A stretch of 64,000 bases of DNA from Stropharia rugosoannulata. Its lineage: Eukaryota; Basidiomycota; Agaricomycetes; Agaricales; Strophariaceae. The stretch spans positions 3,792,001 to 3,856,000 of the forward strand of contig JANCIK010000003.1 in the NCBI GenBank assembly GCA_028532985.1, in the 5' to 3' direction. Of the stretch, positions 30,220 through 60,864 are shown in pieces. The first letter of the stretch is position 1. Each line of letters begins with the position of its first letter. Under the pieces are notes generated by a model. That model searched no databases and was not told where the DNA came from. It saw only the letters and a list, made by a program, of their open reading frames with translations. The translations under genes were made by a program, and so were the position numbers.

Positions 30220-30414
30220 CACCACGGGCAAACAGCTGTCATGTCGGCCAATAAATTGTCACGTCATGTCACGAGCATGTCAACCTCAGGTCGATTGTCA
30301 TGTGGGTTGTCAAGTTGCCCGCCTCATAAATCTGTGACTCGGCCTCAGAATGTCACGCTTTTTATCGATCATTGATAAGATAAAAGCTCGATAAGATATA
30401 AACAGAAATAAATG
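30220..30414 (+). repeat. Left terminal inverted repeat of the giant transposon
   Basis: About 195 bp; bases 30220-30361 match the complement of 59846-59987 exactly, then a few mismatches follow. It contains seven copies of the pentamer TGTCA in its first 142 bp, spaced irregularly. That is the kind of subterminal repeat bound by CACTA transposases. Confidence 0.9.
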
Positions 30415-31090
30415 AAGTTATCGTTGATGAAGGAGCTGATGATAGAAGAAGACACTTGTTGAGCATTTAAGGAGGTCAATGCTGTCGACACTGTGTACGA
30501 TTTGACAACCATAAGTCTGTATTGCTGCACTGCTTGAGAGTTAGGAATTGGTTACGAAAATCGAAGCACGCTCCGTCAAGTTGAAATCCAATACTAGATA
30601 TTAGCAAGCATAACGGACTCGTGGATGACGTAGACTTGTTTAACTTCAGCTCTTCCGAAAGCTCTCGTTAACAATTCAGATTGTTTGGTTGTGCAATCTA
30701 CATGTTATGAACGTCTCTGTCTCATAAAAAGCAGCGGCATTCCACCTTCTCTCTCAGTTGGGATGTCCAAATGTTCAATGACTCCAGGAGCCTTTCCTGG
30801 GAAGCAACTACTCTGGCTTCAGCTTTAGCATGTGGACTATGTGTACATCTGGGTGTGATTTTGGACTTCATATTTTTGCATCAGCGGCCAGCGCAATATT
30901 TGAGACTTTGAGTCTATCTGAGGCACCAGATTCAAATCAAATAAGCACCGTGCTGGCGCGCGCAGTGCTTACGGTTGACAGTGCCGTGATTCATATGTAA
31001 TGTTATGCTATTTTCAATTGCTCAATTCGATTAACGGCATCATTTATTACTTTGATTATACAAGACAAGCTGCTACAATGTTCACAGTGC
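30415..31090. other. Non-coding stretch between TIR and transposase
   Basis: AT-rich, no coding signal; probably carries the 3' end of the transposase transcript and subterminal sequence. Confidence 0.4.
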
Positions 31091-34000
31091 TCATTCACGA
31101 TACCTATGCAAACTATTAATAACGACTGTTGTTGCCTTTCTGATGCCGTATGTGCCGGGGGGGCGAAGATAGAATGCCACATGTCCTATGACGTGCTTTG
31201 CCTCCATTATCAGGAAACTAGACGCATCAGACACATCCGCTGAGTACACGATCTTGGCGAGGAGCCCTGGTAGACTGGCAATAGGGCTTTTGGAGAAGTC
31301 GGCTTCAGATAACCCTCTGTGCTGGGAAACAACGATGAAGGTTCGAGAGCCGGATGCATCACTGTTGTGCAGATTGTTAAATTTCCACATTGATTGGATA
31401 TAGCCGGAATCTGCTCCCATGTGCCCTTGTTGTATCTGGAAAGACAAGGCGCTGTTACCTGGATGAAGGTCAAACGTTGAGTAGCTGTGTCCCTTGTGTA
31501 AAAGATGAAAAATGGGAGTGGCTGCCCTAGGAAGAACCGGTGCACCGTCCGGATGAGGCAGATCTTTAGCGTGTCGCATTTGCATCGTTCCGTTGCTATT
31601 CAAGTATGCAAGAAGTGCTCTGTATATGTTGTCTGGAATAAGTTTCAGGCCAGCACCGCTGGGGTCCTGCTTGTTGCAAGGCTGCCCCAGAAGGAACTCT
31701 ACACCGTTTATCACCAAATCAGAACTGGACTTTGTAACGGCCAGACCACGGAGATAGCCCATCAAGCGACCGCGACGGCACATTTGTCTGAGCATGGTAT
31801 AGTCCAATTCCCCTAGATGACTGTTAGAGGTGTATATAGGCATGAATCTCCTTTACCCACAAAGATGATTATTTGTGTTGGTGTCTTGTAAGTCACCATT
31901 AAGTTGTTTGCCAGCAAATTCGCTTATACACATTAAAGGTCCCCAGAATCACATCAGGTGTGGGTTATGCATAGCGTAGTGATGATTAGGTGTAGACCGC
32001 CTGCGAGGAAACAGAGATTTAGCAGATTGCCTGTATTTGATGTAGTTGTCCTGGTACGCTGCAGGGGCCGACTCCGGGACCGAGTATGAGCACAGTATAT
32101 TTGTACATGTAACCAGATGATAGAAGTTTTCGAGTAAGAGAAGCTTATCCAGTGGACGGCGCGAATTTGTTTGCCCACCCAAACTCCATATTTCTGGCAA
32201 AATAAGGGGAAGAAACACTGAAATCAGGACAAGCCACTGGTCAGCCTTCAACTTGCCATGAGATTTATTTCCAAGATTCGCAGGTGGTCTGGCTAGATAG
32301 CTTGGCACTACAGCATCAGCGAGACACGACCTGATAATTTTCAGCTCTTCACGTGAGAATACACAACCTAGTAGCCATTTTTCTTTGTCTGATTCTTCAC
32401 CATCTTCGGAATCCAATTCCGAGTTGCTATCGTCCGCGGGGGCATAGTCTGTGTCCTCTTCTTCGTTCCCTGAGCCTCCATTACTATCTAGCAGCATAGA
32501 CAAGTGCGTGCGAAACCTTAAATATGATCCTGCATTTAATGGTGCATCGTTGAATCGCCTGCTCTCTTCATACAACACATCCATTTCGTCTTGGGAAACA
32601 GTTTCCGTGGAGAACGTAAGGTCGGTTTCTTGGGAGGTTGTACAAACCAATTTGCGTCTGGTTTTGCACTGTTTATGCGCCCTACTGTCGTCATCGCCTT
32701 GTGAGAGATCGGGATCCTCTGAGTTCCGTGCCTTCTTTTTCTTTTTCTTGCGGTCAGGAAAGCCTACGCCCCAGAGGACTTGGACATGGTGCTGCAAGAC
32801 GCCTTCCAGCCAGTTGTGCATTATGCCTAGCATGGTGTGCTGAACAGGGTCTCCATAAGGAAGCGCATGAAGGGAGGACCAACGAATGCCGTGATTTCGA
32901 ACAAGGTCGTCTTTCTCACCGTGTGTATCTGCGTCCTTCCAAGCGATAGCAAGTGCCAGTACTTCTTCAGCCGTACGCATTTCCCATGCTTGATAGTTGA
33001 GATCATCTCTATCAGCTAACGCAAGCTTACAGAAGGAACAGAAATTCTTCTTTGAAGCCGTTCCTGCAAAGCCCAACGCTTTTTTCGAAGCGTTCAAATC
33101 CGCTATCCTGGCTAGCACCCCAACCTGTATCCAAGCACCATCAGAGTGCTTATATGTTCTTACAATCCGCCCTTCCCACCAAGGTTTGAGGCTTTCAATG
33201 ATAGGATTGGCCAGATGTGTAATGGTGGTGACGGTAGGTTCTTTAGGAGGAGGAGTGATACCAGCAAAATATGTGTTTTCAGCTAGGTGCTGCTGATCAT
33301 GAGGAAGGTTCAAACAGAACATCATGATTGCTCCACATGAGATGGTTTTGCCTGCGGTTTTATTGTAGAATGGATTGAACCAGTCAATGTAGTAGCTGAA
33401 TGTGAGATTTCCTCTAGTGACAGAAAAAGTACCATCGTCCCCAAGACTTCGCCATGCGGGACTGTCGTAGACGGATCGCATATTGCTAGGATTAGGGATG
33501 TGATTATATGACGCTTCAATGAGGTCTTCAACTTCCGGTCTCGCCAGGAAATATTCAAGCCAAGAATCAAAAACTTGAGTGGAGTAAAGCATTCGGGGGA
33601 CGAGGCGTATGCCTCCTCTTGTAGAGCGTTTGACCTGTAGTTGTTCCTGACATGGCCTGGATCTTGATGTTTCCCGATAGAGGCATATTGCAGGCAACTC
33701 TGTCAAGCTGTACGTGGTGAAGCACTTCAGACAGCAAACGGTCTGCCTTATCTCGGGTTCAAGATGAAGGGCCGACATAGCAGTGCGCACATCTGCCGGT
33801 AAACGAAACAATGAGTTGGAAACCTTTTTGCCAGAGCTATTGTGCCAAGTAAGAACTTATTCATCTTTGCATAATCAATAGCGTACTTACTGACCTGATC
33901 CACCTAGAGTGAGTGACGAAAAAGCGATACCAAGCTTTATCGCCAGTTGCACGATAACATTCAACACCTTCAACGCTTTGGAAGACGAATCTCGACTAAG

Positions 34001-34545
34001 ACCACATGCAAGATGTAGCCAAGAAAACAAGCAGCACGTAAGGACATATATAGACTCCTTGAAAGTGCCGATTCCTATTTCCATTGTCAAAAGATTACAG
34101 AGATAATACTATGTTTTAACTACCAGGTTCTTCCGGTCTGCAGTCAGCGAAGAAGTCTGCGCGTTCGGGGTCACCGCTGGCTGGAGAGTCTGCTTGAGGG
34201 GCAGTACCGGTCGGGTCAATGGAATCTGTGTCTTCGGAACTACGGGTGGCGAGGGGGGCTACTCGAGGGGCAGTACCGTTCAGATTCGGCGTGATTGCCA
34301 CTTGAATTTCGGCCTAGTCTATTCAATCAGCCTCCTTCTATATCAGCAAGAACAGATAGCTTTACATCTTGCCTATAAACCGTTGCAGCAGGGTTGGTCA
34401 AGTCGTTTTTGAGGTGGTACCTTCTGGTAGAATAGGGGACGTATCGTCCTGATAGAACCTGACCAAATGCATCGATCACCGTTTGTGCGCGGCACACAGT
34501 GCATGTACAAAGATATCTTTTTCTAAGGTTAGGAGCATCTGCCAT
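31091..34545 (-). pseudogene. CACTA/Tnp2-type transposase, one in-frame stop
   Basis: Cut-and-paste transposase expected to mobilise the surrounding element. Five exons (34545-34381, 34313-34124, 34074-33891, 33836-31857, 31820-31091) join in phase to about 1,082 codons. Landmarks are an N-terminal Cys cluster (YLCTCTVCRAQ), a helical region with WLHLACGLSRDSS, a second Cys pair (TVCCLKCFTTYS), the core SYYIDWFNPFYNKTAGK and GAIMMFCLNLP, then FCSFCKLAL, DPVQHTMLGIMHNWLEGVLQ and the C-terminal LDYTMLRQMCRRGRL and HVAFYLRPPGTYGI. This order matches Tnp2-like transposases of Agaricomycetes. A TGA at 31949-31951 interrupts the frame between HNPHLM and FWGPLM; homologous context continues on both sides. 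It is either a nonsense mutation or a readthrough site. Confidence 0.85.
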
Positions 34546-36380: not shown

Positions 36381-36527
36381 ACGGGGACTCGGTGTTATGT
36401 ACATATTGTTTATTTACCGATCTTGTTAGTGCAGAAATAAGCGACCATGATATTGGTTCAGAAACAATATAGTACATAGAGGTTAAGCACAAAGTGAATC
36501 ATCTTTCTTTATAACACCTATCTCTGA

Positions 36528-38357: not shown

Positions 38358-40055
38358 ATGCCGTTCCCAGCTACCACATACATAGGAGTTGACCCGCGTC
38401 ACAGAGTAAATGCTGTAGTGTTCTCCCCTAATGGGAAGCTGCTTGCTGTGGGGACATACAAACAGGAAGTGCAGGTATGATTATGTACCAACTAGTAATT
38501 ATAAAAATTCCATCACTAAACATGGTACAGATTTTCCACCTTGAAAGTGATGAATCATGGACGGCTCTTGCTTGCTACAAACAGCCAGTCACAATGACTA
38601 GCAATGTATACGGCACCATTGTCTCTATGATATGGCATCCATACCTCGTCGGCAATCTGTTGATTGCTCACTCTACCGGACTGATTCAGTATACCAGCAT
38701 AAATAATGGACAAGTACTAGGTCACAAATTCTTTCCATACTTGCATTTGCTGATCCCAGTATACAGGGGTCCGTAAATGGGGAAATAAAGTTATCAGACT
38801 TTCAGCATTTCGGAAATTTTGACTTCGTGTCTACAAAGCCTCTGTTGTTAATATGTGCACACGATAACGGACGTGAGCTTACCGGCATATTTGATCACAA
38901 CTGACTCTTCACTGCTCACGGTGCATGGGGTGAGCAATATTTCACTTGTTTTAATATCAGCCAGGTGATTCTTGCGCTCAAGAAAATGGACTAGAGCATA
39001 TTATTGTGTCAGACCCGCGTTTAATCCAAGACGGTCTCCTTACAGAAGAAGAGAAACCGCTGTTCATGGAATATATAGGCGAAACAACTTTCCTTGCCAT
39101 CTTTCCAAGGGCCTGTGTGTAAGTGTCATTAAATGAAGATGTGTGCGGGTTTTCTGATCTTAAGTCTAGTACATTTTCCTCCTCAACTCCATATAAGATC
39201 GTCTCTATTTTGAGAGTTCCTACTTGCAGAGCATTGTGAGTCAACTATGAGTGAGAGACAAATTAGATATCATTCAACTTTGATTACCAGCTCGTCAGCA
39301 ACTCTATCCCTTGACAAACAGACGATTGTCGGGATAACGACGTATGGCGAAGCTGAAATGTATTCTGTTGCCAATCGAACGTTCATTAGCAAGATTAAAT
39401 GTATTGGAGCGCCTATTCGACCAATTGAAAGCATTGCCTTTTATGACCGATACGCTGCAGCCGTGACTGAGCATCGCCGTTGCCCGGAAACAGGCAAAGA
39501 AATGTTAAGCATCACATTTCTGAGTGATATACTAAACAACTGCTCTTGTTATCATAACCACAACGTACAGCTGAACATCAAGCCAGAAAACGGCATCGGT
39601 CCTGCAACCGCGTGTAAGTGCTGACTTCCACTTGACTCTTACCTGGAAACATTGATACCATCAATCACACAGCAAAGACAGTTCTGGTAAGCGCTATTGA
39701 TTTGCTGATACACAGTGCACTCATATAAGTAGGCTGGATCTGTGTCAAACGGTATTGGTTGTGTGGCGATCTCTCTTGGTATACTGGGGGGTCATAACTG
39801 CTTAGCAATTGTTGTTCCCCAGGTAGAGTCTTCCATAATCTTCTACAGGGAGATGCTTAATATCCTGCAGGGGCTGACTGTTGGGGCTCGTAGTGAAATT
39901 GAGCATGATGGGTCTCAAATTCTTGATGGAAAGGATGATGGTAGGTGTCATACTACTGCATTGAAGTGTTATATTTATGTGGCCATATGTTAGAGGCTCA
40001 AGACGAGGATGAGGACAATGAGGCGTATAGCCAGGATGAGGACGATCAGACGTGA
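38358..40055 (+). CDS. WD40-like beta-propeller protein with acidic tail (cargo)
   Basis: Starts MPFPATTYIGVDPRHRVNAV and shows a WD40-type blade (NAVVFSPNGKLLAVGTYK, then across an intron VQIFHLESDESWT). A second blade-like strand follows (IVSMIWHPYLVGNLLIAHS). Later exons include TEEEKPLFMEYIGETTFLA, a 39247-39610 frame with repeated beta-like strands, and GCVAISLGILGGHNCLAIV. The last intron (39942-39992 region) joins to an Asp/Glu-rich C-terminus ending DEDDQT at 40055. WD40 propellers are protein-interaction platforms, and the acidic tail could bind basic proteins such as histones. Intermediate splice sites are not fully resolved and some frames may be damaged, so the gene model is approximate. 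Confidence 0.55.
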
Positions 40056-41708
40056 CTGGGCTCGGAGGATGGAGACCTGAGGCCTGAGTTGCCGGACCAG
40101 ATAGCCGACAGCTAAATCCGCTCGCCAATTGTTGATCCCATGTATAATAATGAACCTTACTCCGAAATCGATGCCAACAATAAGTTTCCAGTTTGCATAT
40201 GTTAAGTGTGAGTTGGACGGACAGCGGCTCAGGTCGGGCTCAGGGCTGTGAGGTCTTTTAGTAAATTTTGGCACAGAGCCTATCTGCATTACAAGTCCTA
40301 TTCATCACGAATTGCTTTCTTTTACTAACTCACATTCCTGTGGGGTAAAACAGTAGGTGACGAGAATTTCCTTTGTCTTAGTATGTCATTATCATGATAC
40401 ACTTGGGTGGTGCTTAGAGGCAGTGTACCCAAAATGCACCTTTGGATCAGAAAGGGCTCGCTAGGGCTTGCCTACTAGTGTCCGACAAAGAACCTCCTGC
40501 CATATAGCTTAGAGAAGAAGGAGGGCAGGGAAGCCAAGCCTTTGAGGGATTAGATAACGGCAAGATAAGGTCACGGTAGTCTTCTAATGACTTGTGGCTA
40601 TTTGTGTTAAGGTTCAACGTTTCAACTACGGCCCGTTTCACTAATCGCTTCTTGTTCACCAGCGAGCCAACTGATAACGGTCTGTTACACAAATGCGCAA
40701 CCCTGCAAGGTCACAGGTGGCAGTGTGAATTATCCTAATCCAGTTACTGTGGGGCCCAATTCGTCTTACAACAGCTAATACAATAGCATCAACCCGTCAT
40801 GTAAGTCCAGTCTATGTGTAACTAGTAAAACACATCTTAAAAGTCATATCACTTGTCCAGCCTCCCGCAACAAGCACAGTTTATTTGCTCTTATTGCTTG
40901 GCAGTCCGCATGGACCCACAAGACGATATGACATCACGTTGCCCAATGCCAATGAGACTGTATGTGGTTCATTCAACATGCATTGGGCATTGGGTACTCA
41001 TTAACATTGTTCAATGCCACCGACCGGTGGTGTACACAAGGTGTACATAAACAAACATACATACGACGCCTCTATAGTAAACAGAGAGATCAATACATGT
41101 TGAGTCCCAATTAAACCAATACTAGGGCAGTCGATAAGAAGTCGTAAATGAGTTCAATGCGCAGGCATGTTGAGGCATTCTGAGTTTCAAAATACAGCGC
41201 CACTGACGCTTACTAAGTGAAATTCTCTGCAGACAGTCACATCGCGACTAGTGAGTGGCACCATATGCAGAATGTCCAAAAGTCAGGTTGAGTTGAGCCT
41301 CTTCGCGCAGGCGGTAACGTTCATAGGCGTACAAATAGGCTGATAAACCTAGAACCGTCTTTATTCTCTATAGAACGAAGCAAAATTTCCAGAGAACTGC
41401 AGCACATTGGCAGGACACCTTTGTGACGGAGTGGCATCACAAGAAGCTCGCACAAAATGCAATAATGACATCCTAATAGAGTTATGAAATTAAAAAATGT
41501 ATACATGGATATCTTGGAAATGAATAAGCAGAATCAAAACTGGTTTCTGTGTATTTTGTACGTAATGACAGTATTCGGTGTACCGTGTACTTATACGGCA
41601 CCTGCGGTTTTGGTGGAACCCAAAACAATTCTCAACGCACCTCTCCTGTGCAGATAGTCCTATACGCGACATACTGTCTTACATATTCCTCCAGACGCTC
41701 AAAAAAAG
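40056..41708. other. Spacer inside giant transposon
   Basis: No supported gene. Minus frames at 40447-40692 and 39990-40289 look random. It holds the second copy (about 40730-40945) of a diverged duplication. Confidence 0.35.
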
Positions 41709-43015
41709 ATGAACCAGAGTGGCAGCACCGCTCAAAATCAGCATCCAACTCTCCCCCGATGCCCAGCTAGTAACATTTGTCAACAAGAAAAATACGTAGG
41801 TAGTCGGAGAAAAATGTGTCCATAGCAATCTTACCAGCGGCTCTTGCTACAGGCCGAATATATAGATTCAGCGGCGTCAGCAGGAGACCAGACTTATCCC
41901 TTCCCCTCACCGCCGCATCAGCCTCCAGTCACCCCCGTATATGCCATAAACGACGGTAATGTAGTACATTATGTATGTGCCTCATATATGTACAGTTCTC
42001 TTACTAACTACCAAAGATTCACGGATGTCCGAATTTAAACGCGGCATCGGAATACCAGACTTGGCCTTCCCCTTCACAGCAGCCTGTCACCCCCGTACAT
42101 GTCACCAACTTCGCTCAGGCGTGGGCCTATGTAGGCGTTTTTTTTGAGCATCATTCTCGTTTCTGAATGAAGTAAATTGGGAACAGCCTTTTACTTACCA
42201 GCCCTTCCTACAAACGTCCTATCTGCCTCTTCCCATCACCGACTCACAGGCCAGTAATGTTTGGCGCGCAGAAAATCTTGTGAGTAAATTAGCATATATC
42301 CGGCCTTTAACACTCTTTTTTAAAGACCCTAGATTCAGGACGAAGGTCTAAATGCAGCTGCCTTAGCAGGTCGTCAGGTGTACCCTTTCCCCTGGCCGCA
42401 CCACCCTCCTCCCGCCATCCCCGTGCATGCCACTGTCAATGATACGATATATTATGTAGGCATTTTCTTTACCTGCTTCTAGTCTCAACGAAGTTGATTC
42501 GGTACAACTTTCATATTAGGCTTACCTACCATTCCCCCGGGCATACCAGCCCCTTCCCACCCCATACGCTACCAACGTAGGACTCACAGGAAGTTATGTA
42601 TGGATCACTCTCAGCATATCCACATGGCATTCTTACTAATGGCCGTAGTTCTGGGCAGAAGCTCTAGATACAGAGGCCTCAACAGGACGCCAGACGTACC
42701 CGTTCCCCCCACTGCAGAATCAACCTCTATTCATGCCCGTACATGCCGCATGCGTCGAGCAGCCAGGAAATCCGGTACTTACTTTTGTTTACACTTACTC
42801 AGGCGTCTCAATAACGACCTCGGTTTAGGCTGGAGCTTTAGGACCATCACCCCTCCCTGCAAGACGCCCAACTTACCCCCACTTTCCCTCACCGCATCAT
42901 GCCTTGTCTACCAATATCCAGGGCAATTATTGCAGCTCCCCAGGTACAGTCACTTGTAACTTTCATCCTGAGAGACTCGCACTTATTGCACACTTATTGA
43001 CTCCGCCGTCGCAGG
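41709..43015 (+). repeat. Tandem Pro-rich mini-exon repeats upstream of the PUF gene
   Basis: After a Met-initiated segment (MNQSGSTAQNQHPTLPRCPA at 41709) come about five diverged copies, near 41845, 42040, 42345, 42680 and 42860. Each encodes a peptide of the type YPFPSPPHQPPVTPVYA and is followed by a GTANGT-like donor. They appear to be duplicated exons feeding a Pro-rich N-terminal region of the adjacent PUF protein. Reading frame and inclusion of each unit are uncertain. Confidence 0.45.
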
Positions 43016-44463
43016 CCGCAAAGTTGTGAGAGGTAACGTGACTGCTCACTTAGACGTACTACCGTCTCAAAACGGCTACGTTTCTTCGAGAGAAAAAATT
43101 AAACAATTTAACGCTGTATTGGAGGACTTCAAGAAAGATCCAGAAAGATACAGTGGTCTTAAGGTTTGCATTGTTATCCTTTCCTACCAGAAAATACTTG
43201 ACACGTTTATTTGGCGCTGGTCTAGAGTATATTAGGACACATTTCAGACTTCAGCATTGACTCATCGGGTCAGGAATTCGTGGTGGACCACCTCCGAAAC
43301 GCTTCTGAAGAAGAAAAAGACTTGGTCTTCAAAGAAATTGTGTCTACTACTAAGCATTTCGATAATCTTGCAAAGAACCTTTATGGCAGTGACGTAAGCC
43401 TCTCCCATGTTTCGAGTCCGAAATTAATCTAAAGCTGTTTGATTGAATCATCATGGCGGCTAGGTCGTTCGATCACTGCTTCAATTTGGGAAGCGCCGGT
43501 ATGCAACGGAGACTCTAACGGTGCTTGACCAGAAGCTTGGTCCGTTGTCTCTGAGTTTTAACGGTTATAAAGTTGTACAAACGGTTCGTTATCCCTTACT
43601 TCGAGATTCCGTAGTACTGAGCGCATTTATAGTTGATAGAAGTTTCTTCTAATGAAGACCAGGCACGTATCATAAAGCTTTTGAAGCCACATGCGTTTGC
43701 ACTTATGAGAGACTTTAAGGGGCATCAAGTGAGTATTGTGACGTTCGGCTCTGGCGCTGTTAAAACCTTACGATACTACTAGGTTATGAAAACGTTGATC
43801 GAGCATATATATCCTAATTTATGTTCTTTCATGCTACAGAGCACCATTATGAACAATGTCTTTCAACTTTGTATTCATCCTATTGCATCTACCGTCATCA
43901 AACATTGCCTGGAACGGTTCCCTATTCAATATTCTTGCCTGTTATGGGACCGTGTGCATTGCCATTTTATGCGACTGGCCAAAGATGCTGTCGGGGTGCG
44001 TCGAAATCAATTCAACATATCTATGTATGAATTCTAATCGTATATTCCAGACCTTCGTTATACGACACGCCTTGGAGAAAGGGGACCGTATGAATAAAAA
44101 CACCACCCTCAGCCTCATACGGCGTAATGTACTGCAGCTTGCTAGTCATAAGCTCGGTTCATTTGTTTGTGAGACAGCATTGGACTTTGCCGATCCGGAT
44201 GATCGAGAAGTTTTAATTGAAGAAATTCTAGAGGCGGTTCAAGTTCAACATCTGCACCTCATGGCTGTTGATCCCCATGCAAGTAAGTAAGTCCAGTACA
44301 TTGTCTAACAGCAGACACTGATAATATGCTTCTAGAATATGTTCTTAAAAAAGCATTAGATCTTTCTAAAGGGCAGCAAAGGGATATATTTTTAGAAAAG
44401 CTTGGATCCATTGTTAAGGTATTAGACAGTTTGAAGCTTGAAGACTTTCGTCCATGTATCTAG
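43016..44463 (+). CDS. Pumilio/PUF-type RNA-binding protein (cargo)
   Basis: PUF proteins bind 3'UTR elements and repress or localise mRNAs. Exons joined by short introns encode successive PUF-like helical repeats: GHISDFSIDSSGQEFVVDHL, then VVRSLLQFGKRRYATETLT, FALMRDFKGHQ joined to VMKTLIEHIYPN, then LQSTIMNNVFQLCIHPIAS, TFVIRHALEKGDR and SHKLGSFVCETALDFAD. It ends KYVLKKALDLSKGQQRDIF and a TAG at 44461-44463. The H/N-x-x-x-Q/V-x-x-x-I pattern in helix two recurs. The N-terminus probably includes the Pro-rich mini-exons at 41709-43015. Some repeats are less canonical, so binding specificity cannot be predicted. Confidence 0.7.
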
Positions 44464-44472
44464 CCTACTGCA

Positions 44473-44625
44473 TTTGTCCAAGCCCTAGACTTGAATATAT
44501 TGGGTTTTACCGCAATAAACGGATGCTCATCAGATGGTCACCACTATATTTGTCCAAGACGTAGACCTGAGCATATTGGGTTTCGCCGCAATGAACGGAT
44601 GCTCATCGGACGGCCATCATTGCTC
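44473..44625. repeat. Tandem duplication, two copies of about 76 bp
   Basis: TTTGTCCAAG...GGATGCTCATC at 44473 is repeated at 44549 with several substitutions. It lies just after the PUF stop codon. Confidence 0.8.
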
Positions 44626-48056: not shown

Positions 48057-49744
48057 GATTGCAAAGATGGTGGGTTTTCAATAACTGGGTGATTGCTTGG
48101 ACTAATGTCGTCCCAGTTAAAATTGCAGGTATTTATAATGCCTCAGCTCAGTGTGGCTGCAGCAACCGTGTCTTGGGCCGACATATCTAGAACAATAAAG
48201 GTAGAATTTTTAATCGCATTCAATATGCTATGTTCCAAAGACACTAACAGAAGAACAATAGCTATTGATGCTGAGCTTCTCGATTGGATCTTCTTGTCCC
48301 TCCAGGTCATCGCTAAGGCATCTAAAACACCTCTGGGCGATATCTCTGAGGGAAAAGGCGAACGAAAGTAAAGGAGAACGCCGCTGACATCAGTAATGAT
48401 GCCGTTTCAATGGCAGACAACGCCGACATTATACAAAACCTTTATTCCGAATTGTACCCCCGGTCCATCTCTTTGTATCTGGTATCTGGTACTGACAGCT
48501 GCTCTCTACAAAATAGAGATATATACAGTTAATGGAGTCAAGCTGAGGTCAAGTGATGAGTTTTATGAGAAATCAAGCAAACAACCCATAGATCTTCTGG
48601 AGCCTTACTTTTCAATGAGTCGTCAACTATTTAGATGCGCCAACAATCAGACAACCAGACCAACTCTCCCCAATTCAATGGATAGCGAGGCAATAGGCAT
48701 CGATATCGACCAAGAGACCGTCCTCGTATTCACACATGCAGGACTGTCAAAAGAAATTTTACAAAAGAAAGTAAGTAAATAAATGGTTCAAAATATCATC
48801 TCAATCAATGCAGGTAGACCAATCGACCTTCGATCGGTGAAGGGAACATAGCTGCTCTTTTAGAGCATAAAGATGGACTCATTCAGTTGGGACAATATCA
48901 TATAAAGAACTTACGCGCAGAGCGAGACACTGCCTTGACAAAGATTGAAAAGATAAAGAAGGTGAGTTCACTGCAATGTCTATGTTCTCTGTAACAACTA
49001 AACATGGCCTAAAGAAATATGCATCCTTAATAAGAAGCTGACCGCCGACTTGTAATTACCGAAATTTTAGTACAGTCGCAGCTCTCATAGGTAGATGCAT
49101 CGCCAGTGACTTGGTGAATCTACAATATGTACTTGGAAATCCACTCTTACTATGTATGTCTTGCTGCATCCACCACCACACAGTTGGTTCTTGATAAACC
49201 CAAAAATAAATGTCCTCGTTAACAAACCAAAAGGGTCAAACTCTACTTGACACTAGTCTGCCAGGTATTCAGTCAGCAGTATGTTCCTTACTAAATTCAG
49301 AGTACTTGTAAGTTCCCTCCGAGCTCCTTATTCGTTGAAGTCACAGTATGGAATTTCATCTCCAGTGGTATGTTGAACCTATTCACCATGTCTGGACTTG
49401 GATGAATTTGGCTAATATCATGCTTTGGAGCTGTCTACTTTATTGAAACGAAGAACACGAGCCGATAGATGCCTATCAATGCATTCTAATAAATACTAAT
49501 ACACAACTAATGGCTTGTCGCAGTGCACACTATTCGCTTCCATCAAGATCTCTGAAGAAGCAGTATTACGTGAACGCCATGCACTCTTTCTTCTTGATCG
49601 AGTTATCACAATAAATATTTTAATTTTCGGGAGCAGTATGGTTGTATACGACAAAAAAAAGTATTTTTTGTTTTTAAAAAAAACCGAGTTAAACGCTAGC
49701 ACGTAAAGAAGAGCGTAGGAAACAAAGAGATATGAACATGAACT
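48057..49744 (+). CDS. Coiled-coil protein of unknown function (cargo), approximate gene model
   Basis: Frames at 48132-48371 (PQLSVAAATVSWADISRT, then IAIDAELLDWIFLSLQVI), 48530-48770 (EIYTVNGVKLRSSDEFYEK, then AIGIDIDQETVLVFTHAGL) and about 48845-48960 (LLEHKDGLIQLGQYHIKNL, RAERDTALTKIEKIKK) look like exons of one gene. Donor-like GTAAGT and GTGAGT sites sit at their ends. The last part is a coiled coil. I do not recognise a family. The 3' end is undefined and the stretch after 49020 holds nothing I can support. Confidence 0.35.
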
Positions 49745-50905
49745 TTAGCGATCAGTGTTACTTTCAGAAGGGCTGTCGTCGACAGTGACAACAGTAAGAG
49801 TGATGGGCTGGTTATTGGAATCCATGAGTTGGTTTCTGAAAGTTAATGGATGGCTGTTGGGATTTGCGGAGCCGTTATCGGGATTTGCGCGGTGTCTGTC
49901 AGACATCCTACCCAATAAACCGGCTATAACAGGGGCATTGGAAACTAAAATGGAAATAGATGCCTGGATGGTGAAATAGTTCCATGTTAAACGCGTTGCA
50001 AGAGAGAGAACAGCCACGCACCGATATATGAGAGAAACAGAAGTATAGAGTAGGTTCGTCGGCATTTGCAGAGTACAACGCCCAGAACACGATATTAACG
50101 CTGAGGACAGCAAAACAGCTGGCGAAGCCTAGAAGAATTATGACTTTAGTGGATGCCCTGACATTCCGCAGCCGCTGAACGATCATAAAATTGTGGTAGC
50201 TAGTAACGCCCACGGCAAGATCAATGCAAATACCACCTTCAAACCAATAAGAGACCTCTCCAATAAGGATGACGTTGTTACTCACTGGCAAGGGAAGCAA
50301 ATACAAACCCAAGGGGTAGGCAGTACAACTCGTCTTGGTCAAGGTTCTCCGCTTCGGCGCATAGCTCAGGTGCAAGAATGGCATATGTCAATCCTAGGCC
50401 CATGAGCAATGCCATGGTCAGAGAGATCCGAATATAGGAGTGGGGCGTAATGCGTGAGCCAGTCAACGCAAAGGACGCCCTGGACAGCCTTCATAGTCTT
50501 AAGTATGTAAGAAGACAACTACGCAGCATCAGGCTTACCAGGAGACGACAAAGTAAACAATAAAAGACGAAATATAGAGTTCCGGGGTGAGGGAGTCCGT
50601 AGTGGCTGTCGCAGCCCAAAAATTAGACGTCGCCCTTTTGGCTTTTGGAGAAAATGTGCATGTACTTACTTGAAAGAACGACGATGACAAGCAAACAACC
50701 GCCCCCCAGAGCAGCTGCAGCAGCCAGATAGTCATCAACCCAAATGTATAACTTTACACGTGTATGAATGCGGAGAATAGCCGCATAAAGGGCAAAAAGA
50801 TGGAATAGATAGAGCGTAGAAAGGATGGCTAGACACAATAAGTACGAGTGGTCCCCATCTTAAAGAAATCCTCACCAATAGAGAACGACATTAGGTCAAA
50901 GGTCT
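49745..50905 (-). CDS. 7-TM integral membrane protein, fungal-rhodopsin-like family (cargo)
   Basis: Multi-exon gene whose pieces splice into a polytopic membrane protein: CLAILSTLYLFHLFALYAAI (TM1), then WVDDYLAAAAALGGGCLLVI (TM2), FIVYFVVSW joined to LSRASFALTGSRITP (TM3), TMALLMGLGLTYAILAPELC (TM4), and SGICIDLAVGVTSYHNF (TM5, joined through GTGAGT...GAAG). VIILLGFASCFAVLSVNIVF (TM6) and a last exon with SISILVSNAPVIAGLL (TM7) follow, then a polar tail ending at 49745. The WxDD after TM1 and the S-R-x-T-P loop after TM3 fit fungal integral membrane proteins with a rhodopsin-like fold. Ligand or role is unknown. The start codon is unclear, near 50903. Confidence 0.6.
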
Positions 50906-51591
50906 GTGGGCAATACGGCTTTTGCACTTAATGATGGTGGTAAGACGACAAAGAACATATATGACAGCCAGGTTTAAGTACCCGAATCAGGACGCCCGGC
51001 ATCTGAGTTTAGGAAATTTGATGCACCTGGTATGCGGAGAGAAGGGCCAGGGCCAAGCGACGTTAAGCTGCGAGAAATACAAACAGATTAGAGAACCAGC
51101 GGATTAAACCATTCTTGAGGATTAATCCAACCTTTCATGAAGCTCCAAGCCATCGTAGATGCATAGAACGACTGCACTGCTGTTTATATGAACGTATGTT
51201 CCATATAAGCAGCTCAGGGATAAATGGCACGCTTAAGGATGACACTCATCTGTATGCCTCTTCGGCATCGCGTCGAGTTTGCTATAAGTCTTTGGTCCAT
51301 TGGCTGCGGGGGATCCTGGTCATAGCTATGAGCTTCTACTTCGATTAGCCTGTGGGTGGTGCTGTGTTTGGTGCTGTGTTAAGAATACTGAAATGCGACC
51401 GGTTGGTTTGTCAAAAAGAGGCTTCTAAGACGCTATGAGAGCCATTTAAAAGAGGCACCGTACCTTTTATTCATTACGGAGGAGTCCTTATGAGCTTTTC
51501 CGGTAGGTATGCAGCCAGCAATTAGAAACAACTATGTCCATGTACCAACGGAGTAGTCGTACAGAAGATGGGTGAATGAACACCGCATTAT
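50906..51591. other. Spacer inside giant transposon
   Basis: No supported gene; short plus-strand frames only. Confidence 0.35.
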
Positions 51592-51933: not shown

Positions 51934-52045
51934 TGGGTGAATTCATACCGTCCCAGAGGTCAGAAAATTAAGTGAACGAAGCATAGTGGTTGAACAATCA
52001 AAGCAGCGAGAGCAGGAGATTGGTACAAGGACATCAGAAAACCAG

Positions 52046-52534
52046 TGATACGCTGAAGCTCTCTATGAGCGCGTACAGGTGCGAGGTGGTTTCACACGGC
52101 TTCTAACCAACCCAAAACAACACAAACAAGACGAAATGACGTGAGAACGAGGGAGTGTAAGCTGCAGCGTCAGCTTCGAACCACTCCTGGACGAGGTATA
52201 CGACGAGAACGAGAACTGAGACGAAAACTAGGGCACTAAGACGAGGGGAAACGAAATCTTCTTTTTTCTACATAAAGTACATGCTTTATATATGTAAAAT
52301 CAAAGCATAGCCTACGGAATAAGTGTAATCCTAGAATGTAGGTGCTGAGTAAGTAAAGGAGCAAGGAAAGACCTAGAATTAATGAGTAATGTAATGAAAA
52401 ATGCTCGAAATGCAGGCGGGATATAGTTGTTCCGAGTGCGATGCAAGTCGGATTGTGGCACGGTGGCTGTGCGACGTGGGAACACGGACTTGTGCGTGAC
52501 GGATTCCGTGGCCGTAGATGGGCGCGGCTCATCA
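52046..52534 (-). repeat. 3' LTR (in element orientation)
   Basis: 489 bp, same length and apparently same sequence as 54815-55303. Confidence 0.9.
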
Positions 52535-52547
52535 TCTCCTCCCTACT
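52535..52547 (-). promoter_or_regulatory. Polypurine tract
   Basis: AGTAGGGAGGAGA on the minus strand directly abuts the 3' LTR; primes plus-strand DNA synthesis in LTR elements. Confidence 0.75.
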
Positions 52548-53038
52548 GAAATACTGACTGTCCTCAGTCAGCTGTAAATGAAGGGGATAAAACAAAACAA
52601 GAAAAAACCGAAGCAAATAAGGAGAAAAATGCGAATGCAGAAGCTGCACCAATATAACAATACCAAAAACAAAAGGAATAATCAAATATAAAAGATAAAG
52701 GAAAACAATGCAAAGCAAATGTAACGGAACATTAACGTGCATAAAGGCATAATATAAATGATATACTGGCGCATAAGGTTTTATACCATAAAAGAATCAT
52801 AAAGATCTATCATATAAACGAAATAAGTGAGCATATATCCATAAACATATCTGAATAAATCATAAATCATAAAAGAAACGAAATACGTAGCGGCATAGGG
52901 GCATAAAGCGAAGGCAGGGGGTCCTCCCTACTTAAATATAAACTTCTGGATGGAAAAATAAAGTTGAACATAAAAACGAGATGTCGAGCGATCCTGGAAC
53001 ATGTAAACAAGGCTGGCATGTGTGGGGGGCAAGATAAA

Positions 53039-54678
53039 TTATCCGGGGCGCCTAGGACGAGGGCGGCGACGTCTGGGTATGAAACAATCACTATAGGCGA
53101 TATTGGGGTGAAATATACGAGTGGCAGGTCGACGGAGTGCATTGAAATTGACTAGAGACGGTGGTGATGTGCAAAAACGAGAGAATAATCCTTTATCCGA
53201 GTTGCAGCATGTTCTGGTTGTAAATAATGGTCTATGAAACAGTGGCGACGACTTGGGGGGCTGTAACTTGACTATAACTGTGTTTGACTTCAATATGTCA
53301 CTGCTAGGCGTAATGGACGATGGTGGCGAAGAGGAGCGATCTATGTGTGACGTCTGGGGTGCAGGAAACAGAGTAGAGGGTGCAGGCGAAGAATACATGG
53401 ACGAAATATACTTCTGAGGTGGTAAGTCGATGCTGGATGGATACGTAGGTGTTCTAGGATGTGTAGCGACAATTTGGGACGAGAAGACGCTGTAATATTT
53501 CTGTGAATTTGACTGAGCAACACGGGGCATTACTGAAACGTTTGAGGCAACGTTTGGGACCTGGTGACGGAGTCTGGCAATTTCCTGTTCGATTTCTGCA
53601 ATCCTGGAGTCAATATCATCGATGTACTGCATGTCTGATTGATTGTGTGACGAGGTAGCGAATGCGGGCGCGAAAACACTTTGTAAAACGGTTGGCGGTG
53701 ACTGATACAACGTTCTTGACTGTCCTGGATGTCTTCTATACCATTCATCGAATTTTTCCTTCAAAAATCGGCCTGGAATATCTTCTGGAATGTAAGCACC
53801 GGTGGGGAGCACTACTTTGCCGTCTGAGTTGCGTATAACTTTTCCTGAATGCATGTAGTCGTCAACGAGGGTGCAATGTCGAATAAAGTGATTTTCTCCG
53901 CAGAACTTGCACTTGAAAACGCGAGGCTTCTTGCTGGGGCGAGTTAATGATGTAGACGACGGCTGAGATGTACTTTGGATTTCCTGGATGATCGACTTCG
54001 TAAATGCTGCGAAAATAGTCCGAAAATCATCGAGATTAATGTTTGTATTTGAGGGGACGACTGGGACAGTATAGGCGACGAGTTGTGCGAGTAAACCGAG
54101 TGCGAGGCGCGCAAAATAAAAATGGCGGCGGCGTAGACGTCTGTGATAGCGTGGGGATCGTCTGGATAATGGTCTGGGAACTTGAGCGCTAAACGCGTCG
54201 AAATTTTTGTCCAAAGCGACGGGGGAAAGGCACGAGGGTACATGCGCTTCTGCTCGAGATCTGATAGGCGTTGTTTCGAAATAAGGAACCGCGAAGTCGT
54301 AATAAAATGTGTATGGTAATCCGAAAGGTCTTCTAGAGTATTCATGCCGATGTGCAAACGATTTTCAATCAATAATTCGAGGTTGGCGAGGGTGTACCAA
54401 TAATTGTCGTTGGCAGATGGGTAAAGCTCGAAGACGGCGTCCTTAAAATTATCAAAGGTCGAGAAATTGTCCAAAAATTGAGGAAGCGACTCCCAAAGGT
54501 CGGCGGTGTCGTTATCTACGTAGCGTATGGCGTAACACTTCTGCTTGGAGGCGGTAACAATGCCGGATGTGCTGAATAAGTACTGAAGGTCGGAAAAATA
54601 GTGCTTGAGCCCACGGGGCTTTGCTGGGTCGAAAGACGGTGCACTAGGGTCTCCAAAAGCTGGCATAGGAAGGGACAT
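53039..54678 (-). CDS. Ty3-type gag polyprotein, in two overlapping frames
   Basis: Frame A (54678-53944) starts MSLPMPAFGDPSAPSFDPAK and gives a capsid-like gag domain (LFSTSGIVTASKQKCYAIRY, then FDNFKDAVFELYPSANDNYW). Its C-terminal part is replaced by frame B (54214-53039), which carries DDFRTIFAAFTKSIIQEIQS, the zinc knuckle CKFCGENHFIRHC (CX2CX3HX4C) and a Ser/Pro-rich tail. The switch, near 54110, needs a frameshift: either a programmed one or an indel. Because the LTRs look identical, a programmed shift or an indel in the source copy is as likely as decay. Confidence 0.75.
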
Positions 54679-54792
54679 ATTGAGAAACGAGTGTAGACGG
54701 ATGACGAAGTGTTGGAGGAATTGATTGTGAATTAATGTCGAAATTGCGCGAATAAAACGGGATTAGCTGAAGTCCAGTGCATAGGAAACTCA

Positions 54793-54811
54793 CCCCTCGC
54801 GGTGGGCTCCA
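54793..54811 (-). promoter_or_regulatory. Primer binding site
   Basis: TGGAGCCCACCGCGAGGGG on the minus strand, three bases inside the 5' LTR. It begins TGG, complementary to a tRNA CCA end; which tRNA was not determined. Confidence 0.65.
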
Positions 54812-54814
54812 AAA

Positions 54815-55303
54815 TGATACGCTGAAGCTCTCTATGAGCGCGTACAGGTGCGAGGTGGTTTCACACGGCTTCTAACCAACCCAAAACAACACAAACAAGA
54901 CGAAATGACGTGAGAACGAGGGAGTGTAAGCTGCAGCGTCAGCTTCGAACCACTCCTGGACGAGGTATACGACGAGAACGAGAACTGAGACGAAAACTAG
55001 GGCACTAAGACGAGGGGAAACGAAATCTTCTTTTTTCTACATAAAGTACATGCTTTATATATGTAAAATCAAAGCATAGCCTACGGAATAAGTGTAATCC
55101 TAGAATGTAGGTGCTGAGTAAGTAAAGGAGCAAGGAAAGACCTAGAATTAATGAGTAATGTAATGAAAAATGCTCGAAATGCAGGCGGGATATAGTTGTT
55201 CCGAGTGCGATGCAAGTCGGATTGTGGCACGGTGGCTGTGCGACGTGGGAACACGGACTTGTGCGTGACGGATTCCGTGGCCGTAGATGGGCGCGGCTCA
55301 TCA
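54815..55303 (-). repeat. 5' LTR (in element orientation)
   Basis: 489 bp; see the matching copy at 52046-52534. Confidence 0.9.
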
Positions 55304-55349
55304 CCAGACGGTGTTCAAGCATATGTTCCTGTCATTACCGAAAGGCTAG

Positions 55350-58300
55350 ACATTTGAACGGCGGCTAAACCCCATATCTCAGACAGAAGTGCGTCTCTGT
55401 TGAGTTTGCATCCGGGTCTACGAGCACTGCTGTAACTGCGAAGGACGATGACCGTTGGAGGACCGTAGCATTCATGAGTCTCTTCTGGGTTGCAAAAAGG
55501 ACTCGAAAAAGAGCACAAGCATCGGGGTGAAGCTGTCTTGCCAAGGTAGGGTTGCGTTTCCATATACAATACTAGATTGCAGGTTGGGTGCAGGAAAGGG
55601 TTGATTGAGGCCAGCTCGAGTGTCACGATGACGGTGTGGTAGGAAGGTTGCGGTTTGTTATTCATCATGTGATGCCGCTGCGACTTATCCGTACTACCTT
55701 CCAACTATCTGCTGGACCTCTGATTGACTCCCTGTAGCGGCTGTTTTCCCTACGGTTCCCCCTTGTTCAGACGTTCTCAATGCAGATGGTGGCTCATCCA
55801 TGGCATCACTAAGCGCTTGCTGGATGCATCAAGTTGCTCTTTCATAGTTCTACCACAACTTTGAACGAAGTACGCAAGTCAACAAGCAAAATATCACACT
55901 GGAGACAAATCGAGTCAGCATATGCAACGTTGTGTATTAAAACATTAAGACGTACTTGAAAAGCGCATTGGGCTCAAAACGAAAACATACGTCCATTGGT
56001 TACCAGTCCTACATCCGCTGTTTTTATCGCAAACAACGGTACGTACATCATACATAGGCCCATCTCGTCCGACGCTACTGAACCATACAGCTTTCGCCAC
56101 TACCGAGTGAGAAGCGTGGCCCCTGTGGCTCAGTTGAATGTCGAAACATGTAAGTCGCTCATTTCCGTTTATCAATACTGCGAGATGAGTTATTGAGGCT
56201 CAAAACTAAACACTTGCCCCCGACGCCATCGTTAGAAGGGTTTCTAAAACATCCACTTCTTACTCACCTGAAAGACGTTGTTGTCGTGCTCAAAACCGAA
56301 CACCTGTATCTCGACGCCATCACGCGAAGGGTTTCTGGGACATCATTTCTTAATCACCTGCAACGTTGTTGGGCTCGAAACCGAACACTTGCATCACGAC
56401 GCAATCACATGAAGGGCTTCTGGGACATCCACTTCTTAATCACTCTACGGACTCGGGAGGGTGAGGAAGGCCTGATCAACACAGGGGAAAAGGGCATGTA
56501 GACGATTAGCAAGGTAAGTTACTTGCCGGTTGACCTTGGTGTGCCTGCCAAAGATGTTTGAGTCGGCGGTATGCTATATCTGTCGTCTGTTTACCAAGTG
56601 ATGATGGATTGTTACTAGTATGCCATTCTCCTGTTAACTGAACGGTGGACACACTTGCTTTCAGGTCTGTTTCTGGAACAGTTTTTCGTTGGTATGGTAC
56701 TGAAGCACAGTCGGTATATAGGATCAAAGTATGTCTTCTTTTACTGGATGGATAGGCTCAGTGGTCTTATAACTCCTTTTCCAGAATATTCCTGGACGGA
56801 TGTTGATCAATGCAAACTCCCTAGTGATATCAGCATGGGTATGTTGCACACGGCTCACCATATTTTGCATGTTTTCTGTACTTTTTTTGTTTAACAGTTG
56901 ACCAGGTAGTAATGACGACAAGCAAGCACTTATAATCGATCAGGACCACAGGGACGCTCGTTGAACGTAAATGCCTTCGACCTAGATTCCACCGTTGATT
57001 ACATCGGTTTTCATTCACCCGGTCTACCTGCAACTCATAACGCGTTAGTTATCTCCCCTCAAGCCTGCTCAGACCTTCGTTACCGTTTGTTATAGGCCGT
57101 TTCCCCCTTTGACTCATCGTGGTTGGCGCACTTGCCTGCTGAGACCCTACCTTGTCCGAGGCCGCTTTTAAGGACGAGAGATGTGGACATATAGCCAGCG
57201 GTCAGCTCTGTCTGAAGCAAGGCTGACTGGATTTCTTTGCATCCCCTTCCTCCTATGTCGCTCCCCTTCCGTCGAGGACCGTCGAGACCTGTATCGGTAT
57301 CCCCCTTGATCTGCATATCTAATTGGCTGTGTCGAAACAAACTGGTCAGTACCTCAGACATCCAAGCATGTTCTCCAAGCTATCAGGCAATCGCTGAATT
57401 TCTGCGACGACTGGCAGGATTAAGTGGCGGCAAGATGTATGGAGCAACGTCGATGTGCGTCTATCCTAAATCTGCTTATTCGTGTGTGGATGATGAAGAG
57501 GGGTGAATCAGCCCACGAAAGGCGGCGAGGCTGTCGACGGGAGTTATTTGACATTGACGACGGTGCTGACCTTTGAGGTATGTTGAGTGCCGCCTACAGC
57601 TCAGTCAATGCCCTGTGGGATGTCAGCATGCTGCAACATTGGTAGCGGTTGCCGTATTAGCCCATGCTACCGACGTTCTTGGTATCCGGGCATCGATAAG
57701 ACCTTCTGAAGAGCTAATAGCTCTGGGAGAGGGGCGGTTGACTGTCTGCTAGTCTACTGACCGGTAGCCCTTGTAGTAAGGTAAGGATTTCCGTTGGTAT
57801 GAGTTCTAGCAAATATTGAACTGCCTTCACCAGCCATGGTGTCCCAATTCAGCTCGTCTCGACGACCCATGTCACCCAGGCTATGAAATAGATTCCTCCC
57901 TGTTTCTGTACAATCAGTCGAACTTCTGGCGAAAAACCTCAATGATTTTGCGCTATGCGTACCTGGTTCATAATGTTCTTCAGTCCTTCGTCTCTTACCC
58001 CCTGGTACCTTGTATCACCCCTTTTAACTTCGGTTTCCTTCCAGAGGTACAGTTGAGCGAATAAAGGCAAGCAGTTATGGGAAGATGCCGTGGAGCATAA
58101 GATATAGAAGTGACCATGGTATGCCGGAAAGGCCTGCCCATCTTGCTCTCAAGACTGTCAGAACACCTGCCCCTTGCCTCTTTTAGATGTGGCATATTTG
58201 GTGCTATCACTTATATCCTTCTCTTCTTCCTTACTGGTACGCAGAATATTTTTACAGGTCTTGCTGACGCTACTATTAACTACTCTTTTTGTTTTGCTTT

Positions 58301-59792
58301 CCATGTTCATATGGCCATTCACCTATACTTTTCCGACGTGGATATATCAAGCATGGAGCCGTTGGGACTACGTTAAATTCAGCATGGTAAGATGCCACTC
58401 ATCTTACCTTACTCTTGCTTTCACCGCTCTTTTTTTTTTTGGCTATACAGAAACACTTTCTTTCCCCTGCTCCTGATGATTTCCGGAGCCATCACTAAAG
58501 GTCAGCGACTGAAGATGTATTGCTATGATAAGCTTGCCAAATGATTAAAATCACCTGCTTTTTGATGAGGAGAGGACATTTCTATCCGTAGCAAGCTGCC
58601 ACATACGTTGTAATATGGTTTCGGTCTTTCCCTCGTAAGAGGTTGTTGATGCAAACGGTCCGTGCGTTCCATCTGTCGCCCGTCACGATTCCAACTTAGC
58701 ACGGCATCCCCCACAATACGGTGAGTCCTGGCTTTTCACCCAGGGGAACTCTGCTAATCTTGTAGTCCTTGTGGACGAGTCGCCCATTTCTGCCTTCATA
58801 TTTGCTTATCTTTCTAGTCATTTCAATGTTCCACCTCTCCGTTGCCGCTACAGCCCTCCCTGACGATGTTCGACCACCAAAATTCTCTGAACCTAAACCT
58901 GTCAGCCCTAGTTACTACAGCAGGAAAATGAATTACCAAGGTGCCGGCTCTTGATGCAGGAACCATTGAAGCACGGTCAGAACTCAAGATTCCAACCAAC
59001 CATTCCTCGGATCGTCGAGGACCCAACCGTTTACTCTACCAGTGCCTTACCCTCGATCCCCGCTCTCAAAGATGCTACCGAAGCGTTTCGCGACGTCTTT
59101 CCGTGCTACCAGTAATGGTTACGTCTGCCGCAGCTCTTTTGGAACTTCGTTAGCGCCTGGGGAGACCCTTGACATCCTCTCCATTGCCCCTACCCAGTTC
59201 AAATTCTACTTTGATTCGCTCTGTAATCTCAAGGCAATACCCTTTCCAAGACACACCTAGTTTCAAGTGATGGTTAGTACGTCTAGTCAATTGGTCAACT
59301 CACTTAGCTAACCGCCTTACGTGGATTATGCATCTATGCGGGGGAAATGCCACTGTTATTGCTCATTCCGGCTTTTTTTGCTTTGAATAACTCAAGGGAA
59401 CGCGTCCGCTAAGTCTCGTCAAACACAGGGGAGCTCTTCTCGGACCCACCCTTACATGGGAGTACATGGGTCTCCGGTACGGGTGAGCATTAGTTTCTAC
59501 CTCTAACCAACCGTATACGCACCCAACATCTAGTTTTCAAGCAGACAGGACGCGATTATGTTTACCACGGAAACTTTTCATTTTTAACACTCCCAAGCTG
59601 TCTAACAACAGTCATCGAATTGCGCGGGAGCAAGCTCAACAAGTAATATGTGCCATCAGCTCCTTTATCACTGATAACTATATGGCTTGTCGGTCAAGTG
59701 ATTTTTTTTTCATGTTTTCTTGCTGTCGTATGATCCATTTTAGTGGGTCTTGACTCTGGACTTCGATCCTGTCATGCGCTAATAACGTATCT
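55350..59792. other. Right part of giant transposon: decayed or unrecognised frames
   Basis: A minus frame at 55704-55315 (with NPEETHECYGPPTVIVLRSY, LNRDALLSEIWGLAAVQ) may be a real exon. At 56655-56840 a plus frame has LFLEQFFVGMVLKHSRY. At 58174-58400 there are two hydrophobic segments (LLLTTLFVLLSMFIWPFTYT). At 58810 a signal-like stretch occurs, and around 58960-59115 a convincing exon (RFQPTIPRIVEDPTVYSTSA, then ALKDATEAFRDVFPCYQ) is followed by stop codons. These suggest one or two eroded genes. I cannot assemble a complete model or name a family. Confidence 0.3.
56198..56460. repeat. Three tandem copies of an 85-90 bp unit
   Basis: Units start at GCTCAAAAC/GCTCGAAAC (56198, 56288, 56373) and share CGACGC[C/A]ATCA and CACTTCTTAATCAC-like words, with moderate divergence. 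Confidence 0.7.
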
Positions 59793-59987
59793 CATATATT
59801 TTTGTTTACATCTTATCGAGCTTTTATCTTATCAAGGATCGATAGAAAGCGTGACATTCTGAGGCCGAGTCACAGATTTATGAGGCGGGCAACTTGACAA
59901 CCCACATGACAATCGACCTGAGGTTGACATGCTCGTGACATGACGTGACAATTTATTGGCCGACATGACAGCTGTTTGCCCGTGGTG
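59793..59987 (-). repeat. Right terminal inverted repeat of the giant transposon
   Basis: Complement of 30220-30414; the outer 142 bp are identical, including all seven TGTCA words. Confidence 0.9.
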
Positions 59988-59990
59988 TGA
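59988..59990. repeat. Right 3-bp target duplication of the giant transposon
   Basis: TGA, matching 30217-30219. Confidence 0.8.
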
Positions 59991-60781: not shown

Positions 60782-60864
60782 GTTCGTGATTTGGAGTGAG
60801 TAGCTTGGGTATCAGATAGAGCTGTTTTTATACCTCAGCCACTGCCTATATGCAAAGTTATTAA

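Follow-up and report, generated by a model that had tools for sequence, protein, structure and literature searches.

What kind of mobile unit occupies nearly 30 kb in the middle of a host gene of the mushroom Stropharia rugosoannulata, and what are the genes that it carries for? The question arises from a 64,000-nucleotide stretch of this genome (assembly GCA_028532985.1, contig JANCIK010000003.1, positions 3,792,001 to 3,856,000; hereafter the window), in which an initial annotation, made from the letters alone, had proposed a CACTA-like giant transposon with cargo genes. It is through Starships, which use tyrosine recombinases and are best documented in ascomycetes, that giant transposons with genes on board have become a central subject in fungal evolution. 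Here we conclude with considerable confidence that positions 30220-59987 of the window are a giant CACTA-type transposon (element E1) with 196-bp ends, a TGA target site duplication (TSD) and about seven conserved genes, which likely moves as one cut-and-paste unit with a transposase of predicted RAG1/Transib-like fold. The CACTA-like reading is supported by the termini, by the TSDs and by paired ends elsewhere in the genome that enclose the same genes.

Termini, target sites and copies of the element

E1 measures 29,768 bp and lies at C3:3822220-3851987 of the S. rugosoannulata assembly, whose 20 contigs (C1, C2 and so on; 48.0 Mb) were the genome searched throughout. Its terminal inverted repeats (TIRs), described at first as about 195 bp, are 196 bp long with five mismatches, and the outermost 142 bp are identical, as had been claimed; the 3-bp TGA duplication is likewise present on both sides (Table 1). 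To find further copies, the E1 end was used in a search that led to a second family of ends, and this end together with a 29-base end pattern led to others; the pattern has ten matches in the genome and its reversed control one, and the right end of E5 was located by self-comparison. In this way, five complete elements of 19-36 kb (E1-E5) were identified in one genome, each with a perfect 3-bp TSD (TGA, TTA, TGA, TCA and TCT, respectively). T is the first base of all of these TSDs, and CACC or CACG opens all ten ends, giving CAC..GTG termini. Six or all seven of the conserved E1 genes recur in the four further places between matching ends, so that the paired ends with the same content that had been proposed as a check do exist.

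When E2 is compared with E3, three blocks (15,402, 4,842 and 6,761 columns) that start and stop within 5 bp of the element ends show 97.8-98.5% identity, while the flanks are unrelated over the compared 1.7-1.9 kb on each side. Because the two are nearly identical from end to end in unrelated surroundings, the whole gene set must have been copied or carried to another contig with its ends intact and a fresh duplication. E2 has about 9.5 kb that E3 does not, with LTR-like (long terminal repeat) sequences and a relative (46%) of the open reading frame (ORF) of the retrotransposon nested in E1, and E3 holds about 1.5 kb absent from E2. A segmental duplication, a misassembly or a provirus between unrelated inverted repeats could account for the large size and the nested retroelements, but not easily for the exact ends and TSDs of five copies, each at a site of its own; we consider these explanations very improbable, and misassembly, which the initial annotation had named as a possible refutation, is made very unlikely by the five TSD-flanked copies at unrelated sites. 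No viral hallmark domain was found among the proteins scanned, an IMG/VR scan with the transposase returned 82 pattern stretches and no confirmed relative, and Rfam gave no match at gathering score over 30200-60000.

The ends of four of the five elements also carry directional arrays of TGTCA. In the two 250-bp ends of E1 this motif occurs 14 times pointing inward (seven per end) and once in the opposite sense; the inward counts are 10 for E2, 10 for E3, 11 for E4 and 2 for E5, compared with a mean of about 0.3 and a maximum of 4 in internal 250-bp windows. Of the 5-mers counted at least 15 times, TGTCA shows the strongest enrichment, for a motif that was picked for counting after inspection of the ends, which are themselves related by descent. 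These arrays resemble the subterminal repeats bound by TnpA in plant CACTA elements (PMC2613891; this and the other papers cited are represented by the portions consulted).

The site occupied by E1 is a gene for an adenylate-forming reductase. On the left flank, AMP-binding_C_3 (28506-28850) and NAD_binding_4 (27840-28502) both exceed the cut-off, and on the right flank an AMP-binding match (E 3.8e-7) scores 29.7 bits, slightly below the cut-off of 29.9. When the protein pieces nearest the two ends of E1 were searched against the genome, five other loci held both pieces, 82-100 bp apart on one strand, which is about the spacing expected at the E1 site without E1; four of the nine other loci of the right piece had no partner. 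The reading frame is open up to the left junction, and about 90 bp lie between the right junction and the next open piece. Thus, of the earlier claim that the insertion lies inside a coding exon, the location inside a gene is upheld by the domain pieces on both flanks and the paralogue spacing, and the junctions are compatible with both an exon and an exon-intron border. Three relatives of the interrupted gene form a local family at C3:3861524-3934688, within about 83 kb of the right end.

Table 1. Positions of E1 features in the window and of further copies in the genome
Feature	Position	Strand	Remarks
Downstream part of interrupted host adenylate-forming reductase gene	27840..30218	-	AMP-binding_C_3, NAD_binding_4
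Left TSD	30217..30219	.	TGA
Left TIR	30220..30415	+	terminus CACCACGG; TGTCA seven times within the outermost 250 bp
G1, transposase gene (Tnp2/CACTA superfamily)	31091..34545	-	in-frame stop 31949-31951 before catalytic glutamate region
G3, 348 amino acids	35189..36380	+	predicted model
G4, WD40-like	38358..39993	+	predicted model; PF12894 above cut-off
G6, Pumilio (PUF) RNA-binding protein	41272..44463	+	N-terminal exons uncertain; PUF part about 42.97-44.46 kb
G7, 652 amino acids	45870..48056	-	best conserved after the transposase; PF26792 in relatives
G8, small protein, 156 amino acids	48225..48994	+	conserved part 48519-48994
G9, predicted multi-pass membrane protein	49745..51268	-	exons beyond 50858 uncertain
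Nested LTR retrotransposon, outside E1's own set	52046..55302	-	LTRs of about 490 bp; repeated ORF 53042-54364; ACCAG on both sides
Block conserved with E4	55768..56092	.	72% nucleotide identity; no clear frame
Block conserved with E4, partly with E2 and E3	58035..58342	.	73% nucleotide identity with E4; no clear frame
Right TIR	59792..59987	-	
Right TSD	59988..59990	.	TGA
Upstream part of the same reductase gene	60078..60521	-	AMP-binding, profile 56-173, just under cut-off
E2	C7:2684738-2721192		36,455 bp; TSD TTA/TTA; repeat 50 bp
E3	C13:902665-931115		28,451 bp; TSD TGA/TGA; repeat 50 bp
E4	C7:2503844-2538413		34,570 bp; TSD TCA/TCA; repeat about 190 bp
E5	C3:2714787-2734108		19,322 bp; TSD TCT/TCT; repeat 121 bp

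The transposase and the genes carried with it

The transposase model of E1 ends 0.9 kb from the left end, where the initial annotation had placed it. In an alignment of 52 transposases, D169 and C287 are present in all 52, D264 in 49, C284 in 50, and H635, H639, E655 and E659 in 51 each, and the motif order D, D, C(2)C, H(3)H, E is that of DDE transposases in which C(2)C and H(3-4)H follow the second D and precede the E. A RAG1/Transib-like RNase H fold is predicted for the E4 copy. PF02992 (Transposase_21) scores above its cut-off in six of six scanned genome relatives, which share 27-33% identity with the window transposase, and is carried by 15 of the 108 database homologues listed. The earlier label “Tnp2-type” therefore holds at the superfamily level; the E1 protein itself is matched weakly, and by Plavaka (PF18759), its sole Pfam match (E 3.8e-4, 20.2 bits against a cut-off of 26.3). 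The same profile scores 18.9 bits for E4 and 15.1 bits for E5 and does not match E2.

This match raises the possibility of a Plavaka-group transposon, a fungal lineage of the CMCT group sometimes tied to TET/JBP genes. Plavaka elements share agaric hosts and a related transposase with E1, and PlavakaB families have TSDs of 2 or 3 bp (PMC12730594). However, the PF18759 scores lie under the cut-off, the termini of E1-E5 are CACC or CACG and not TGT..ACA or CATCA..TGATG, no TET/JBP domain was found in the seven gene models scanned, and CAC..GTG termini with a 3-bp TSD are the criterion by which elements are filed as EnSpm in PMC12730594. We therefore regard a Plavaka origin as unlikely and assign E1, on its termini, TSD, motifs and predicted fold, to the CACTA/EnSpm elements of the CMCT group.

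Seven gene models were built in E1, and likewise in E2-E4, by conservation-guided splicing and GT-AG rules. Where the initial annotation had counted about seven passenger genes, six conserved genes besides the transposase stand, in addition to a nested LTR retrotransposon. The WD40-like protein has an ANAPC4_WD40 match (8.8e-6) above the cut-off, and the Pumilio protein has a PUF match of 8.6e-22; a homologue search with the latter found two proteins only, the best in Mycena maculata (31%), so that there is no synteny support for the Pumilio gene in other species. Two tandem 76-bp units (82%) occupy 44467-44618, where the Pumilio gene model ends. PF26792 occurs in 13 of 13 database relatives of G7, with no convincing match for G7 itself in the Pfam copy scanned and no mention of the family found in the literature searched; the eight relatives that are named belong to Hypholoma, Gymnopilus, Psilocybe, Agrocybe, Panaeolus, Candolleomyces (two) and Agaricus. 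The G9 protein has six hydrophobic 19-residue segments above 1.5, and its E2 model is partial because the 9.5-kb extra segment splits the gene.

The nested retrotransposon is probably a recent insertion. Its LTRs are identical over at least 300 bp, its ORF has nine other loci in the genome at 78-100% identity, and this ORF, which has no Pfam match above the cut-off, is gag-like by position only. Other small repeats of the window include a MITE-like (miniature inverted-repeat transposable element) 62-bp inverted repeat at 60864-60925 and 61026-61087, 0.9 kb past the right end of E1, with a related copy at 20526-20584, and a possible small element with a 47-bp inverted repeat, whose arms (8720-8766 and 9395-9441) are 87% complementary and separated by 628 bp.

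Selection on the gene set and its linkage to transposases

In comparisons among E1, E4 and E2, the seven genes share 47-73% amino acid identity at synonymous divergence (dS) of 0.85-2.96, and the ratio of nonsynonymous to synonymous divergence (dN/dS) is 0.10-0.34 in 20 of the 21 comparisons (one is saturated), for windows kept only at a local identity of at least 30%, a filter that favours low values and weakens this evidence. Between the genes of these three copies there is little nucleotide similarity, mainly at the ends and in blocks near 55.9, 57.8 and 58.2 kb. The gene set common to these diverged lineages is under purifying selection, and the genes are better described as a conserved core than as the passengers that they had been taken for.

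The same genes are also linked to transposases in the genome as a whole, where 19 transposase loci were counted (scored candidates only). All seven G7 loci lie within 28 kb of such a locus, all ten G4 loci within 13.4 kb and eight of nine G9 places within 27 kb (the exception is C4:262719), and four of five PUF loci are near one. Neighbourhoods of this kind cover no more than 1.2% (15 kb) to 2.4% (30 kb) of the genome; in these counts E2 and E3 are non-independent, and the pair of G9 places in E2 comes from a single gene that is split. At C4:262719-263679 a membrane-protein homologue matches in three pieces at 50-69% identity; no transposase was found in its vicinity, and it may be a remnant or a host relative. 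In Candolleomyces efflorescens, homologues of the transposase and of G7 (both “partial”) are the consecutive genes g8896 and g8895, both listed on a 12,307-bp contig. G4 homologues also adjoin distant transposases, within about 13 kb, at C6:2880975-2901847 (PF02992) and C1:2291568-2322433, and the C6 locus also has a G9 homologue, a weak one (E 8e-4). We consider both loci candidate older giant elements; the G4-type genes beside such distant transposases suggest that part of the kit predates this CACTA family. A further remnant on C2 combines G1 and G7 with a G4 match nearby, and a lone E5-like end stands at C14:40271-40299, more than 50 kb from a broken transposase at C14:94865.

An ordinary CACTA element that captured neighbouring host genes and gains nothing from them, so that they travel passively like the gene fragments in some plant transposons, would fit several of these observations: PUF and WD40 belong to host-type families, one PUF gene (42-45% identity) stands alone on C4 (the exception above), PUF is missing from E5, and the young pair E2/E3 has dN/dS of 0.30-1.08. 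The last of these ratios say little because dS is only about 0.02-0.03 (higher for the partial G9). On the other side, the same six genes recur across lineages at high dS where measurable and at low dN/dS, G4-type and G7 genes in this genome were found only near transposases, and the genes are whole open models and not fragments. We find passive cargo quite improbable.

Other observations, together with the E2/E3 ratios, weigh against our interpretation of E1 as one mobile unit with a conserved core. The transposase of the window copy is truncated by an in-frame stop ahead of the catalytic E, which the initial annotation did not mention, and the scanned transposases of the elements are below the PF18759 cut-off and have no PF02992 match. 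E5, whose transposase is about 50% identical and which has matches to G1, G3, G4, G7, G8 and G9, shows no PUF match, only two TGTCA and a weak match for G8 (E 2e-4). Gene order varies among the copies through internal inversions: relative to E2 and E3, the parts of E1 at 31-36 kb (transposase block) and 41-50 kb (Pumilio-to-membrane-protein block) are mutually inverted while the ends stay, which we read as an internal inversion. The empty-site evidence comes from paralogues within the same genome and not from an allele of another strain, the gene models are conservation-based only, and G7 has no recognisable DNA-binding fold (mean pLDDT, the predicted local distance difference test, of 68 and a best PDB match of E 1.3, for a model built from G7 and 14 further sequence rows). 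As a separate observation, the left arm of E4 (C7:2503837-2510714) is a diverged (70-81%) inverted copy, in several blocks, of its right arm (C7:2531329-2538420) and has a second membrane-protein gene, forming a composite or foldback-like end.

Relation to known elements and a proposed mode of transposition

E1 agrees with the fungal CACTA/EnSpm elements of the CMCT group in its CAC..GTG termini, 3-bp TSD, D-D-C(2)C-H(3-4)H-E transposase, basidiomycete host and possible extra genes (PMC12730594). The extra genes reported there are TET/JBP genes, and the portion consulted mentions no Pumilio, WD40 or cargo genes, whereas the present elements span 19-36 kb with six other genes. Giant CACTA elements with several ORFs have been described as enlarged En/Spm families (16-20 kb, 4-5 ORFs) in the red alga Chondrus crispus (cited in PMC6431247), which belong to another lineage and have fewer ORFs, a distinction drawn from description and not from gene identity. 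The soybean CACTA element Tgmt* (20.5 kb, PMC2613891) likewise has a 3-bp TSD, subterminal repeats, a transposase with a presumed DNA-binding function and a position in a gene; unlike E1, it has one complex gene for both functions and 13-bp TIRs, with no conserved accessory genes mentioned in the portion consulted. Four of the five copies exceed both the soybean element and the algal families in size and in number of genes. Among the literature matches listed (titles and abstract starts, with subscription journals mostly outside the scope), we found no description of a giant CACTA/EnSpm cargo element in basidiomycetes. Very large transposable elements (TEs) have been catalogued in another agaric, Marasmius oreades, whose largest TE library entry is about 42 kb long, with class and genes unnamed (PMC9674265), comparable with the E1 family by size only, and whose genome paper counts Plavaka and KDZ elements (PMC8290104); members of the E1 family may therefore sit undescribed in such libraries.

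Starships resemble E1 in being giant multi-gene fungal elements, and a Starship-like element moved by a tyrosine recombinase would share its size and content. Instead of a captain recombinase, however, E1 has a DDE transposase with a predicted RAG1-like fold, long TIRs (196 bp) and 3-bp TSDs, and we give this explanation almost no credence. A search for a DUF3435 captain gave no match in the scanned proteins or the genome, with control genomes silent too and some small ORFs outside the scan, so that its absence is not shown. The initial annotation described Starships as mainly ascomycete elements with tyrosine recombinases, which agrees with their placement in Pezizomycotina (PMC12134995) and needs one correction, as eight have been reported in the basidiomycete Tremella fuciformis (PMC13066641).

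We propose that the two ends would be paired and cut by the transposase and joined to a T-N-N target whose strands are cut 3 bp apart, and that G7 would probably assist it by acting on the TGTCA arrays as TnpA does in plants. Since the structure model of G7 is of low confidence, this role is suggested by its linkage to the transposase and by analogy with plant elements. Present mobility and transposase activity of the family are inferred, and E1 itself may now depend on transposase supplied by the other copies. Selection maintains the Pumilio, WD40-like and membrane proteins no less than the transposase, so that they probably work for the element, either in the control of its own or host RNAs or in its persistence. 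We lean towards a broader reading, in which these are a class of giant elements of the Agaricomycetes' own, independent of Starships: RAG1-like CACTA transposons whose long-carried multi-gene kit became part of the element and is used for control of expression and persistence in the host. The kit would comprise the PF26792 partner, the WD40-like protein, the membrane protein and two uncharacterised proteins, with the Pumilio RNA-binding protein added later. If this is true, fungi would have a second, independent route to the mobility of large units, in the form of a DDE, RAG1-like agaric element of 19-36 kb whose multi-gene core is under selection. It would open to testing how 30 kb are managed by a CACTA transposase, what use a Pumilio and a membrane protein are to a transposon, and whether such a unit crosses species.

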